The notes beneath the pieces were generated by a model. That model was not told the origin of the DNA. It saw only the letters and a program-made list of their open reading frames with translations, and searched no databases. This document shows positions 20,446 to 46,071 of a DNA stretch of 55,475 bases, piece after piece. The first letter of the stretch is position 1; each line of letters starts with the position of its first letter. The position numbers and the translations under genes were made by a program. The stretch comes from a virus: IMG/VR virus record IMGVR_UViG_3300025430_000028, positions 1 to 55,475 of that record; one strand, written 5' to 3'.

Positions 20446-20895
20446 TTAATAAACTAATTTTGTTACTAAATTATCTAAATAAATAAATTCATCTATAACT
20501 TCCATACCCATTTTAACCAAAAAACCAATCGCCCTTAAATTCTTACTCCACAAATGACATATAAAATTCTTACCTATTTTTTTAGCTATAGATGAGAAAA
20601 ATTGTCTCAAATATTGCCTATTTCTATATTGTATATTAAGACCAAAGCTTATCAATAATTTATCTTTATAAAAGAAATATCCTATTAATTTACCTTTTTC
20701 GTAAAATCCATAATAGTGCATTTCTCCCTCAACTTCTTCATAGCTTTTTTCTTTCCTTAATATATCTTCTACTATGTCATCTAAACTTTCAATAAATACT
20801 GTAGGGTCGTAATATTTAAAAATATCCATATCCCCAGCAAATGCCACTCTTATTGCATTCCCTAATTCGTTATGATTTATTTTCTTTACTATCAT
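20446..20895 (-). CDS. GNAT-like acetyltransferase fold, unknown substrate
   Basis: 149 residues with the layout of a GNAT domain: N-terminal helix, GFYEKGKLIGYFFYKDKLL strands (about 64-82), the acyl-CoA loop region replaced by NIQYRNRQYLRQFFSSIAKK (about 87-106), and a C-terminal SKNLRAIGFLVKMGMEVIDE segment resembling the N-xx-A-xx-ly-xk-GF pattern. In crAss-like and related phages such proteins occur among structural genes, possibly modifying or binding virion proteins. Its start overlaps the stop of the nozzle-like gene by 4 bp (ATGA), and it ends 2 bp before the peptidase-like gene. The fold is likely; activity is not established. Confidence 0.6.
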   Translation of the reverse strand: MIVKKINHNELGNAIRVAFAGDMDIFKYYDPTVFIESLDDIVEDILRKEKSYEEVEGEMHYYGFYEKGKLIGYFFYKDKLLISFGLNIQYRNRQYLRQFFSSIAKKIGKNFICHLWSKNLRAIGFLVKMGMEVIDEFIYLDNLVTKLVY

Positions 20896-23800
20896 GAATT
20901 TCTAGGGCTATCAATAAATTTAACACTTATTTCACTCAAAAATACTAAATTATTTGCATTATTTGATTGAAAATCTATTACTATATAATTCCCTTTCAAA
21001 CTATCTCCATTACCTATACCACCTATTGAATTAGTATCTCTTAAAAATACAGCTTCATAGTTACCTTCTAATTGAGCAAAATCAGATTCTACTAAGTTAC
21101 TTTGTTGGTTTGTAGTACCATAACTATATGAATTGGTAGATATTACAGGACAAGCCCAAATTCCGCTAGCTACCTCTTTTAAAGCTAAAAATGATTTATT
21201 TTCAACCAAAGTTTGATTAAATACAGCTTGAATAGAAGCAGCATATTGCGTACCATAAAAGTTGCAATAAGTAGCGTCTTTGCTATGTAAGTACATTTTA
21301 CCATTCTTCCAAGTATATACGTTTTCTTCTACTGCTAATAAATATTCTGGATGAAAATCATAAAATGAAGTATATGAATTTCTTTTCTCATTGAACGAAA
21401 AATTATAATCAGGTACTGTCTGATGAACAGAGCCTTTAATAATAGTTCCTCCTTGAAGTATAACATGGGCCTGCTCTTCAAAATAATCATAAACACCTAG
21501 AATCTTAGCTTTACCACCTTGATTACCATCAAATGATTGATTGTAATTACTTAAAAGACTTTTTATGTAATATTGACCTTTATATAATTCACTTATTGGA
21601 ACAAGCCCATCATCACTAAGTCTCATGTGGTATCCACGAATTGGGTCTACAAAATAATCTTGTATTTTACCACTCACTAATCCTGTATATTGCTCCCCTA
21701 GACCATATTCGCCTTTATAGTATTGTATATTGTTTGCAGTAATAATATCACTACTAATAATCAATTGATTTTCTCCTTGATTATTTTGAATATATTTAGT
21801 ATAAACACCATATTGTCCGCAAGCTCTATTTTGGAAAACTCTTAATATCCTGTCCCTAGCTTTAAATCTTTGAATATCCCCTCTGCTTGTATCTATTTCA
21901 TCATAATTAACAGGATAAAATCTATTAGTTTGATTTATATTAGTATTTTGCTGATACCCTAAGCTCCATCTAACCAATGTGCCATAAAATGCATCTTTAG
22001 CATTTACATCTATTACAAGTGGCCTTGAGTTAGAATTTGTTTCTATATTGTAAGTATCACTATAAGAATAATCATCTACATAAATAGGTATAGTATTTAA
22101 TGGGGTTATTTCCATTTCGAATCCACCTACATGCAAATCAATAACATTACTATCATTTGTAAATATTAAAGCTGACTTATATCCAGCAGGAATTTTAACA
22201 ATAGCATCTACATTTATTACATATTGTTGATTAACTACTGTTACTTGTTGAGTGCCTAATATTTGATTAGTAACAACAGTTCCTGTGCTATTGTAGCATT
22301 TAATAAAAGCCTTTATTGATGTAGATTGGTCTCCATTGCTATTATAAATACTAAATGTAAATTTAAATCTTACATTATAATCAACAGCAGATGTATTCCA
22401 ATAATTATATTCCCCATCAATCCATGTAGGCACTCCAGAATAAACAGTTGGGTCTCCTGCAATATCTGCATTTGTATGACCTATTGTATAATTTGTAGTT
22501 ACAACAGGAGTTGCTGCACTATTTATAGACCAAGTAACATATGAATTACTATATTTAGGATTACCAACACATTGTATTTGTACAGATGGACTTATTGTTA
22601 CATTTCTTTGTCTATAAAAAATATCTCCATCATTAATTTTAAGTATAGCAGGCTGAGAGCTTGTTTGGCTTTGATTATCTGCTAAATGATAGTATTGATT
22701 AGTACTCGAATTATACTCTATATTAAACTTTTCTCCAATTTCGTAATAAATCTGTTGGTCTGCTGAAAATGATAATGCTTTGTTGTAAATAAATATTTCA
22801 TAGTTTTGATAGTCAGGAGTACCATCAAATTTCATATCAGTACTTATATCTGTTGCAGGAGGATATGCTATTTTCAAGAAAGTACCAGTTTTAGCAATAC
22901 CATTCATGACTGGATTAACAGATAAGCCTAATATCTCATAATCATATCCTTTATTATACAAAGATGATGAAGGCGCACCTACTGAATTATATCTTTCTAT
23001 AAATCTAACTCTATCTCCCGGAGAAAATTCATATCCAACAACGCCCTGAGTAGCTTGTATTTGTAAATTATATTCGTATATATTATCTATACCAATATAT
23101 GCATATTTTTGATTTGGAGTAACAGTAACATCAACATCTGAAAATGCGCTAACACTTACCCAATATAAAGCCTTAATACCGTATGAAAGGTTATTAGACC
23201 TTACTATTTGATAATATTTAGCCCATGATGGAGCAAAGTTGTTTATAGTTATTAATCTATCTGTACTTATTTCTTGAGGTGGTATATAAGCTCCTCCAGA
23301 AACACTTGTACTTAAATTAAGACCTATATCAGTATTTACTCCATTAGTTTTACCATTCTCATCATAATAAACTATTCCATATTTATATGATGCATTTGCA
23401 AATAAACTATATAAAATATCCCATTCTGGATGAACTATACTAGAATTATCATGAATATCAGTAAATCCACATAAAATAACACCTGTATAACTTAAAACTA
23501 ACTCATTTGCGATAGTAGAAACTACCGTATATCCCTTTGCAACAGCAGCAGCAGATAGACCTGATATTGCACTTGATATAAGCTCATTTGTATTACTATA
23601 AGAAAAAGAAAGGTCGGTATATGTAGAAGAACCTGTATCGTACTTTCTAGCATATACATTATAAACGGCATACGCCAATGGAGTATACCCTCCTGTTGTT
23701 ACGCCATCAATTACTATTTTAATTGTATTGCTATTTGTTACATTTTCTGCAAAGAATAAAAATCCATTAGCACCAAGTCTTAAACTACCTGTGCTTTCTT

Positions 23801-24869
23801 GAGAAACAGTAGCATTTACAGTAACATTATTATATCCTTCTCTTATACCGCCATATATTAATGTAGACCCATTTAATAACTCTTGAGCATTTGCTGCATT
23901 TGGAACATAATCATAAAGTAATATCTGTTCAGCTTTATCTACAACTGTATAAACAGCATCATTGTAAAACTGAAATTTATATATATCATTATCAGGTATA
24001 GATAATAAAGTTTTATCAAATGATTGTATTAAAGAATAATCACTCGTAGCACCTGCTGTTGTTTCTCTAAATGCAACTTCTATTTTTCTAACACTAGGAT
24101 TACCTGTGTCAAAATACATTATTATATTATTATTCAAATATTTTGAATCAGTACCACTACCGAAAGTTCCATCATTATTTGGATAAAGAGGCAACGGAGT
24201 CTGACTTCCTGTACTCCATACAGATTTTTCATTATCATCATAAACAAATCTATATATAAATTGGAATAAACCATTTTTTAGATTGTTCCCAAGATAAGTA
24301 TTATCAAGCCCATAACAACATTGTATTGGGTTTGTTGGAGGAGCTTTTATTACATTTATATAATTTCTTTCTACGATACTATATGGAGTATATAAATATC
24401 TATCTATATTTATTTTAGTAGGTCTTCCTAAGATATCTACAAAATATAAAATATCATTTTCATTTATAGTTGGGCTGCCTGCATAAATAATATTAATATT
24501 AACTATTATTCTATCTAAATTAAAATTAAGAATATCTCCATCTGTATTTGACCCATTTTGTAATAATGTGTACCAAAATCCACTACTTAAATCATAAACA
24601 TAAATACCATGATTACCTTCATCATTATAATTAAATGAGAATATTCTTTCTCTTACTTGGTCATAATAAGAACTTATGCAAGTATTATTACCAGAAGATG
24701 GCAAATTAGTATTAGGGACTTCAGCATTACCAAAAACATTTTGCGCCCTCATGGCAACTCCATCCCCTCTAAAAGTTATATTTTTAGCATCTGTATGTGA
24801 ATAGAAATTCACCTCCGCATTAGGAGTATCAGTATCTAAGACACCATTAAATTTTCTTATCTCAGGCAT
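20892..24869 (-). CDS. Tail nozzle (muzzle-like) protein
   Basis: 1325 residues, beta-rich, Asn/Tyr/Ser-rich. The N-terminus (RKFNGVLDTDTPNAEVNFYS, then DAKNITFRGDG) has the GxLDTDxxPxxV...Y.DAxN pattern of podovirus tail nozzle proteins, in the manner of T7 gp12 and the crAss-like muzzle. A propeller-like series follows (GIYVYDLSSGFWYTL; ILYFVDILGRPTKIN). It lies directly downstream of the ring-type proteins, the usual order. It would form the distal DNA channel of the short tail. The identification rests on pattern memory, size and gene order. Confidence 0.7.
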   Translation of the reverse strand: MPEIRKFNGVLDTDTPNAEVNFYSHTDAKNITFRGDGVAMRAQNVFGNAEVPNTNLPSSGNNTCISSYYDQVRERIFSFNYNDEGNHGIYVYDLSSGFWYTLLQNGSNTDGDILNFNLDRIIVNINIIYAGSPTINENDILYFVDILGRPTKINIDRYLYTPYSIVERNYINVIKAPPTNPIQCCYGLDNTYLGNNLKNGLFQFIYRFVYDDNEKSVWSTGSQTPLPLYPNNDGTFGSGTDSKYLNNNIIMYFDTGNPSVRKIEVAFRETTAGATSDYSLIQSFDKTLLSIPDNDIYKFQFYNDAVYTVVDKAEQILLYDYVPNAANAQELLNGSTLIYGGIREGYNNVTVNATVSQESTGSLRLGANGFLFFAENVTNSNTIKIVIDGVTTGGYTPLAYAVYNVYARKYDTGSSTYTDLSFSYSNTNELISSAISGLSAAAVAKGYTVVSTIANELVLSYTGVILCGFTDIHDNSSIVHPEWDILYSLFANASYKYGIVYYDENGKTNGVNTDIGLNLSTSVSGGAYIPPQEISTDRLITINNFAPSWAKYYQIVRSNNLSYGIKALYWVSVSAFSDVDVTVTPNQKYAYIGIDNIYEYNLQIQATQGVVGYEFSPGDRVRFIERYNSVGAPSSSLYNKGYDYEILGLSVNPVMNGIAKTGTFLKIAYPPATDISTDMKFDGTPDYQNYEIFIYNKALSFSADQQIYYEIGEKFNIEYNSSTNQYYHLADNQSQTSSQPAILKINDGDIFYRQRNVTISPSVQIQCVGNPKYSNSYVTWSINSAATPVVTTNYTIGHTNADIAGDPTVYSGVPTWIDGEYNYWNTSAVDYNVRFKFTFSIYNSNGDQSTSIKAFIKCYNSTGTVVTNQILGTQQVTVVNQQYVINVDAIVKIPAGYKSALIFTNDSNVIDLHVGGFEMEITPLNTIPIYVDDYSYSDTYNIETNSNSRPLVIDVNAKDAFYGTLVRWSLGYQQNTNINQTNRFYPVNYDEIDTSRGDIQRFKARDRILRVFQNRACGQYGVYTKYIQNNQGENQLIISSDIITANNIQYYKGEYGLGEQYTGLVSGKIQDYFVDPIRGYHMRLSDDGLVPISELYKGQYYIKSLLSNYNQSFDGNQGGKAKILGVYDYFEEQAHVILQGGTIIKGSVHQTVPDYNFSFNEKRNSYTSFYDFHPEYLLAVEENVYTWKNGKMYLHSKDATYCNFYGTQYAASIQAVFNQTLVENKSFLALKEVASGIWACPVISTNSYSYGTTNQQSNLVESDFAQLEGNYEAVFLRDTNSIGGIGNGDSLKGNYIVIDFQSNNANNLVFLSEISVKFIDSPRNS

Positions 24870-45117: not shown

Positions 45118-46071
45118 TTAATTATTTAAAATATTTATTATTTTAAAAATTTCAAAAGCAACTTGTGGTACTATTGCATTTCCATAGGCTTTTATTGATT
45201 CGTTTCTCCATTTAGAAAAGGTGATTCCGTCCAATTTGTTGGGAAGCCCATCATTTCCCCCACAAATCGGGGGTTCAACTGGGAAGTTTTTGAAGTTGTT
45301 AATTCCATCTCTGCTATTTGGTCTGTTAAATTTCCCTTGCCTCTCTTGTCCGATGTGTTCCCTCTGCTTGCTTGTGCTGTTGGTGTACATAGCATCCCAA
45401 CTAATGAATTCCTTTTCGCTTGACTCGGTGGTAAAGTTGAATTTTTCCCATCCTGTGCCATCGGTGTCGGGAACATGTTTATCATTACTCTCCCTAAATT
45501 TAAACTGTGAGAATCTTTTTTGTTTTTTGTTAATCTTCTCCCATTTTCGTTCATTTCGCATTGACTCGTCGGTTCTTGTGTCGTTGGAGTGGGCAATAAA
45601 CCAAATTCTTTCTCTTCTGTGCGGAGCGTTGACGCTTGCAGCAGGAATAATAAACGGTTGGACTTCATAACCTTGCCCTTCCAAGTCAGAACACACCTCA
45701 TCGAATACCAATCCCCCCCCCCAACTAACAAGTCCACGAACGTTTTCCCCAATAATCCATTCGGGTTGTACTTCTTTAATAACTCTAAGCATTTCAGGAA
45801 AGAGATGTCTTTCGTCGGCTTTCCCTTTTCTAAGCCCTGCTGTTGAGTATGGCTGGCACGGGAATCCTCCTGTAAGAATGTCAATACTTCCTCTGTGAAT
45901 AGAGAAGTCTGTTTTAGTAATGTCATTATAACTAATTGAATTTGGAAAATGATGTTTTAAAACTTTTTGTCCAAATGGATTCCATTCACAATGAAATATA
46001 TTTTCCCATCCCATCCATTCAGCAGCTAAATCAAAACCACCTATACCACTAAATAAACTTCCATGTCTCAT
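45118..46071 (-). CDS. DNA cytosine-C5 methyltransferase
   Basis: 317 residues with the C5 methylase motifs in order: I SLFSGIGGFD (5-14), IV GGFPCQPYS with catalytic Cys71, VI ENVRGL (109-114), VIII PHRRERIWFIAHS (150-162) and a C-terminal YGNAIVPQVAFEIF (motif X). It methylates cytosine in its target, probably guarding phage DNA from host restriction. A G10 tract (45713-45722, minus) encodes WGGG at about residue 117, and a second open frame overlaps residues about 49-293. Loss of one G would fuse residues 1-118 to that frame. The gene is directly downstream of a divergent promoter region. Confidence 0.95.
   Translation of the reverse strand: MRHGSLFSGIGGFDLAAEWMGWENIFHCEWNPFGQKVLKHHFPNSISYNDITKTDFSIHRGSIDILTGGFPCQPYSTAGLRKGKADERHLFPEMLRVIKEVQPEWIIGENVRGLVSWGGGLVFDEVCSDLEGQGYEVQPFIIPAASVNAPHRRERIWFIAHSNDTRTDESMRNERKWEKINKKQKRFSQFKFRESNDKHVPDTDGTGWEKFNFTTESSEKEFISWDAMYTNSTSKQREHIGQERQGKFNRPNSRDGINNFKNFPVEPPICGGNDGLPNKLDGITFSKWRNESIKAYGNAIVPQVAFEIFKIINILNN
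45192..45926 (-). CDS. Overlapping frame inside the methyltransferase gene, 244 residues
   Basis: Same strand, shifted frame, open across about 77% of the methyltransferase gene. The text is not random: LLGKTFVDLLVGGGDWYSMR, then CVLTWKGKVMKSNRLLFLLQ, two [LF]-x-TP-x-A/T-Q units (GLLPTPTTQ, MFPTPMAQD), LCTPTAQAS and LNPRFVGEMMGFPTNWTESP. From memory, proteins with WYS-x-x-C-x-LTWK, LLPTPT and LNPxFV-x-x-MMGFPxxWT recur as hypothetical or methylase-related proteins, so this frame may be selected. The G10 tract lies in it as VGGGDW. Translation alone would begin at the ATG at 45926; fusion to the methylase N-terminus by frameshift at G10 is the alternative. A shadow frame with accidental openness is not excluded. 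Confidence 0.55.
   Translation of the reverse strand: MTLLKQTSLFTEEVLTFLQEDSRASHTQQQGLEKGKPTKDISFLKCLELLKKYNPNGLLGKTFVDLLVGGGDWYSMRCVLTWKGKVMKSNRLLFLLQASTLRTEEKEFGLLPTPTTQEPTSQCEMNENGRRLTKNKKDSHSLNLGRVMINMFPTPMAQDGKNSTLPPSQAKRNSLVGMLCTPTAQASRGNTSDKRGKGNLTDQIAEMELTTSKTSQLNPRFVGEMMGFPTNWTESPFLNGETNQ

Follow-up and report, generated by a model that had tools for sequence, protein, structure and literature searches.

Among C5-cytosine methyltransferases, enzymes made of two polypeptides are known, e.g., M.AquI, a two-subunit enzyme whose second chain carries motifs IX and X, or M.EcoHK31I, which has the target YGGCCR and whose small chain is nested in the gene of the large chain in an alternative reading frame. 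In C5 methyltransferases, motif IX is expected between motifs VIII and X. Homopolymeric tracts, on the other hand, are a feature of phase-variable methyltransferase genes such as the phasevarion mod genes, which are bacterial, largely of type III and in which a single chain is affected. For M.EcoHK31I, a natural split into a large chain with motifs I–VIII and X and a small chain with motif IX has been described (PMC3404938).

Here, we describe a methyltransferase locus in a viral DNA of 55,475 nucleotides (IMG/VR record IMGVR_UViG_3300025430_000028; the whole stretch analysed is referred to as the window). A 1325-aa protein encoded at 20892-24869 of the window matches the C-terminal domain of the crAss-like phage muzzle protein (PF25729, E 5e-6), which gives a hint of a crAss-related phage of Bacteroidota. 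We consider it probable, at roughly three in four, that the locus encodes a two-polypeptide C5 methyltransferase of the M.EcoHK31I type, consisting of the chains alpha and beta, with a younger G run that gains and loses bases and in which a slip is predicted to cause a reversible loss of the enzyme.

Results

In the ORF map of the window, the beta ORF is entirely contained in the alpha ORF, on the same strand and in the +1 frame (Table 1). An initial annotation of this DNA had already reported a second frame open for about 244 codons, which is confirmed here; its gene span of 45192-46071 was right at 46071, but 45192 is the end of beta and the methyltransferase itself runs on to 45118. The tract of ten Gs lies, as described there, where the two frames overlap, and is read as W-GGG-L in the alpha frame and as V-GGG-D-W in the +1 frame. 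Removal of one G would indeed join methyltransferase residues 1-118 to the +1 frame. Alpha matches PF00145 over its full length, and a search of Pfam with beta gave no match. In PHROG, alpha matches phrog_363 and beta matches phrog_1008 (E 9.3e-24, positions 13-235), both of which are labelled DNA methyltransferase.

Table 1. Features of the nested methyltransferase locus, with positions in the window.
Feature	Positions	Strand	Basis
Alpha (C5-cytosine methyltransferase chain)	45118..46071	(-)	317 aa; motifs I, IV, VI, VIII, X; PF00145 E=3.3e-49
Beta (nested +1-frame gene)	45192..45926	(-)	244 aa; phrog_1008 match; no +1 stops; motif IX-like segment
Internal ATG, beta start codon	45924..45926	(-)	Conserved ATG and selected codon choice
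G10 tract within the alpha/beta overlap	45713..45722	(-)	Seen in the sequence
Alpha motif I, SLFSGIGGFD	46030..46059	(-)	Sequence and alignment of relatives
Alpha motif IV, GGFPCQPYS (catalytic Cys)	45844..45870	(-)	PCQ invariant in the alignment
Alpha motif VI, GENV	45739..45750	(-)	Invariant in the alignment
Alpha motif VIII, NAPHRRERIWFIA	45592..45630	(-)	Alignment of relatives; aligned to M.HhaI
Alpha motif X, AYGNAIVPQVA	45157..45189	(-)	Directly past the beta stop; third codon position variable again
Beta block WYSMRCVLTWK	45678..45710	(-)	L67, W73 and W82 invariant among beta relatives
Beta LLPTPT	45582..45599	(-)	Alignments; second copy FPTPMA at 45459-45476
Beta motif IX-like segment, LNPRFVGEMMGFPTNWT	45228..45278	(-)	Profile alignment to M.HhaI 267-302; codon-position diversity

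The PF00145-type motifs I, IV (PCQ), VI (ENV), VIII and X are all present in alpha, and the alpha profile aligns to M.HhaI and M.HaeIII. Between motifs VIII and X of the alpha frame, motif IX is absent. The earlier description of a methyltransferase with all C5 motifs therefore needs correction, motif IX being missing from the main frame and apparently located in the +1 frame, where the beta ORF contributes a motif IX-like segment (LNPRFVGEMMGFPTNW). In the alignment of beta relatives, LNPxFVxEMMGFPxxWT is the most strongly conserved block. A profile built from 95 second-frame proteins and compared with all solved structures gave a weak match (E=1.7) to residues 267-302 of M.HhaI (GKTRKLHPRECARVMGYPDSYK), i.e., its motif IX, and the same conserved block of a single-chain phage methyltransferase aligned to the same M.HhaI site. 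The beta segment is assigned as motif IX by this weak profile match together with the exact position. As alpha holds motifs I, IV, VI, VIII and X and beta the motif IX-like segment, the two frames together would provide the full C5 motif set. An AlphaFold2 model of beta alone was poor (pLDDT 60, pTM 0.27).

Gordonia phage CheeseTouch (L085:1501-2535) encodes a single-chain methyltransferase whose main frame includes motif IX, but a long open +1 stretch with LPTPT repeats is also found there; this gene may represent a transition from the single-chain to the nested form or vice versa.

The avoidance of stops in the +1 frame starts exactly at the internal ATG at 45926, and a +1-frame ATG is located at nt 131-146 in 80/80 relatives. 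The Asn-49 codon is AAT in 25/25 dereplicated genes (60/60 overall), whereas both Asn codons, AAT and AAC, are equally frequent elsewhere (AAT background 50%, p=4e-8). Of the 11 genes with GAA as codon 49, 9 have TAT as codon 48, which recreates the ATG three bases earlier, and the remaining 2 have an ATG at nt 131. The AAT preference and the compensating TAT thus indicate that beta's own start codon is maintained by selection. This speaks against both a frameshift at the tract and a start just past it. Beta is most probably an independently started nested gene and not a frameshift product of the G tract. A start at the ATG 11 nt past the tract, for which the G run would serve as ribosome-binding site, was rejected, as most relatives have ACG or AAG in place of this codon and stop avoidance begins upstream. 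Nor does the locus belong to the programmed-frameshift genes, since most relatives lack the G run and +1 stops are avoided already upstream.

Alpha was intact in 80/80 closest viral loci (79 without L002, a second copy of this phage), with both frames open and beta always in +1. The beta ORF comprised 205-342 codons with one exception at 201, and beta identity across these relatives, the second copy aside, was 38-81%. In a bacterial set of 80 loci, mostly from Bacteroidota, nearly all had both frames overlapping at +1, with beta identity reaching down to about 28%. Although dereplicated sets were used, the relatives are statistically non-independent. Expected stop numbers were derived from synonymous shuffles preserving protein and codon usage. 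In 37 dereplicated relatives, 0 stops were seen in the +1 frame of codons 49-112 where 103 were expected, compared with 110 seen and 73 expected for codons 1-48. The bacterial replicate (65 genes, residues 52-112) contained 1 such stop with about 108 expected.

Consistently, codon-position diversity in 54 viral genes was.13/.10/.42 ahead of the overlap,.39/.17/.19 at residues 261-280 and.11/.08/.48 beyond the overlap. The wobble position of the main frame is variable in residues 1-112 and 293-317, and that of beta varies most in residues 166-280. The wobble position consequently passes from the main to the second frame and then returns. Stop deficits in both sets and the wobble inversion support the initial view that both frames are selected. 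The database search with the alternative-frame protein and the synonymous-site analysis in relatives, which had been suggested as checks, point the same way, with many homologues (phrog_1008 as well as viral and bacterial loci) on the one hand, and wobble variability inverted at residues 263-280, next to the stop deficit in the +1 frame, on the other.

The same two frames occur in phages of Lacticaseibacillus, Acinetobacter, Bacteroides, Porphyromonas, Pseudomonas and Escherichia. In Paenibacillus phage Tadhana, gp55 matches phrog_1008. Public annotation of such loci varies (L083, L090, L091): both nested genes are annotated in Tadhana, and the +1-frame ORF in Porphyromonas phage018a and Escherichia phage Dru_SM5. 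A match to phrog_1008 was also obtained for gp5 of Mycobacterium phage Catdawg, in which genes 6 and 5 (L371:1098-2049) share a shorter, partial overlap; here, gene 6 carries motifs I-VIII and gene 5, in the +1 frame, the LPTP region and motifs IX and X. E. coli prophage relatives were detected by DNA similarity. One E. coli prophage methyltransferase copy (L092:1500-2261) is listed in its annotation as a pseudogene containing an internal stop.

Most relatives use other codons at the position of the tract and have no G run, and beta is conserved equally in them. The tract is thus not needed for the overlap. Among related contigs, collected by a pattern reading only the upstream side of the tract, run lengths of 9-12 were found; a 15-G run followed by unrelated-looking sequence near a contig end (L229:10392-10424) was excluded from the register counts. 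An unbroken run was present in 51 distinct contexts, of which 40 were in register, 9 one G short and 2 otherwise shifted. Accordingly, 11/51 (22%) were out of register compared with 0/82 distinct contexts without a run (p=1.3e-5), as read from assembled public contigs, which may include assembly errors at G runs. Frame-changing variation of tract length among related copies, as typical of homopolymer phase-variable genes and as initially proposed, was therefore found at the level of assemblies. Shifted contigs belong to several lineages, share 85-95% identity with relatives that are in register, and keep both frames open downstream of the tract. G10, in register, is found in the contig of this window as well as in L111, a second contig of this phage. 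Pairs of contigs that come from different metagenome ids but share identical flanks also have the same tract length (L105/L114, L106/L107, L118/L121, L204/L207).

In the one-G-short state, beta's own reading terminates about 11 codons after the tract start and the alpha N-terminus enters the beta frame. As both frames cross the tract, a single slip is predicted to disable both subunits, and the truncation of beta makes an off switch likelier than a two-product switch, contrary to the two-state methyltransferase that had been favoured over simple on/off behaviour. The tract, which appears younger than the nested arrangement, probably acts as such an off switch.

Discussion

This locus combines dual coding, conservation and a selected internal start with a distribution of methyltransferase motifs over two frames and with tract-length variation among assembled contigs. 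Judged from sequence comparisons, an old split methyltransferase with a nested second subunit is the best account of these data. In this arrangement, the alpha chain would provide the motifs for catalysis and cofactor binding (I-VIII and X), and the beta chain, translated from the internal ATG in the +1 frame, would contribute the segment with motif IX and probably a share of target recognition. The active enzyme would then be a complex of alpha and beta. In the subclade including this phage, codon choices in the overlap have yielded an uninterrupted run of about 10 Gs, which gains and loses bases; upon loss of one G, the first ~118 residues of alpha would be fused to the beta frame and beta would be truncated, so that the enzyme would be reversibly lost. 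For this system, we infer that the two chains form a complex, that they methylate DNA and that the enzyme is turned on and off within a single population.

The second frame could alternatively be reached mainly by slippage at the G tract, i.e., by DNA phase variation or polymerase or ribosome slippage, resulting in a methyltransferase with two alternative C-termini. The tract is in fact placed where selection changes from the main frame to both frames, one-G-short contigs with both downstream frames open occur in several lineages, and -1 states (9) are commoner than other shifts (2). However, most relatives keep beta despite having no G run, and +1 stops are avoided upstream from a selected ATG, which slippage at the tract would not require. 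The fusion product would, in addition, be devoid of motifs VIII and X. We regard this route as unlikely. Beta should rather be seen as a second subunit than as an alternative C-terminus, because it has its own upstream start, is conserved without the G run and carries the motif absent from alpha. The alternative C-terminus put forward in the initial annotation is thus not upheld, as beta is open upstream from its own ATG, is kept without a run and carries the missing motif IX; what holds of the slippage idea is register variation as a secondary layer, not the origin of the second frame. A related option, likewise given little weight, is that one hypermutable G tract switches both subunits together and that the one-G-short fusion of motifs I-VI and beta is not a dead gene but stable with a role of its own, e.g., DNA binding without methylation.

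That the second frame is untranslated, its conservation being a by-product of conserved methyltransferase sequence and codon bias, seems by far the most improbable of the readings. It is true that the N-terminal ~65 residues of beta show no amino-acid constraint of their own in the wobble-site analysis; residues 1-65 are the counterpart of the motif IV-VI region, which is highly conserved. Nevertheless, the 103 stops predicted by synonymous shuffles against 0 observed, the inverted wobble pattern over residues 263-280 and the start codon under selection refute this explanation on statistical grounds. More weight, albeit still that of a minority view, is due to the possibility that the differences in tract length are sequencing or assembly artefacts and that phages in fact have a stable tract: errors are frequent in long G runs, and the lengths are known here from assemblies. 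Against this stand the 22% of unique tract contigs out of register compared with 0/82 controls, and the same length found in the four pairs of identical-flank contigs of different metagenome ids.

The nested overlap covers ~735 bases, is kept in phages and prophages throughout Bacteroidota and has relatives in phages from several other phyla; of the same-strand overlaps in phages, it would be one of the longer and more widely conserved. The nested pair would also account for two unrelated-looking database families that are both named DNA methyltransferase, as well as for gene callers giving one ORF or the other. In PHROG, the two chains are catalogued as separate families under one label, beta in phrog_1008 and alpha in phrog_363; in the literature, we found no paper presenting these families as a nested subunit pair and none on the alpha/beta overlap in phages. 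If the G tract switches both subunits, phages would gain a one-step, reversible way to shed self-methylation.

Compared with the phasevarion mod genes, the locus shares the shift of register in a methyltransferase gene by poly-G slippage, but it concerns a C5 enzyme of a phage, and one slip would hit two overlapping subunit genes. With M.AquI, it has in common a catalytic chain and a second chain bearing later motifs. However, motif X is located in the alpha frame past the beta stop, which differs from the split of M.AquI; the layout of Catdawg genes 6 and 5 rather resembles the latter. The closest likeness is to M.EcoHK31I, where, as here, motifs I-VIII and X would reside in the large chain and motif IX, assigned in our case by a weak profile match plus position, in the small one. 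The small-chain gene is nested here as well, so that the likeness is one of layout. In contrast to M.EcoHK31I, the present system is phage-borne and widespread in Bacteroidota, shows no partner restriction enzyme among the neighbouring ORFs looked at, and carries a G tract within the overlap.
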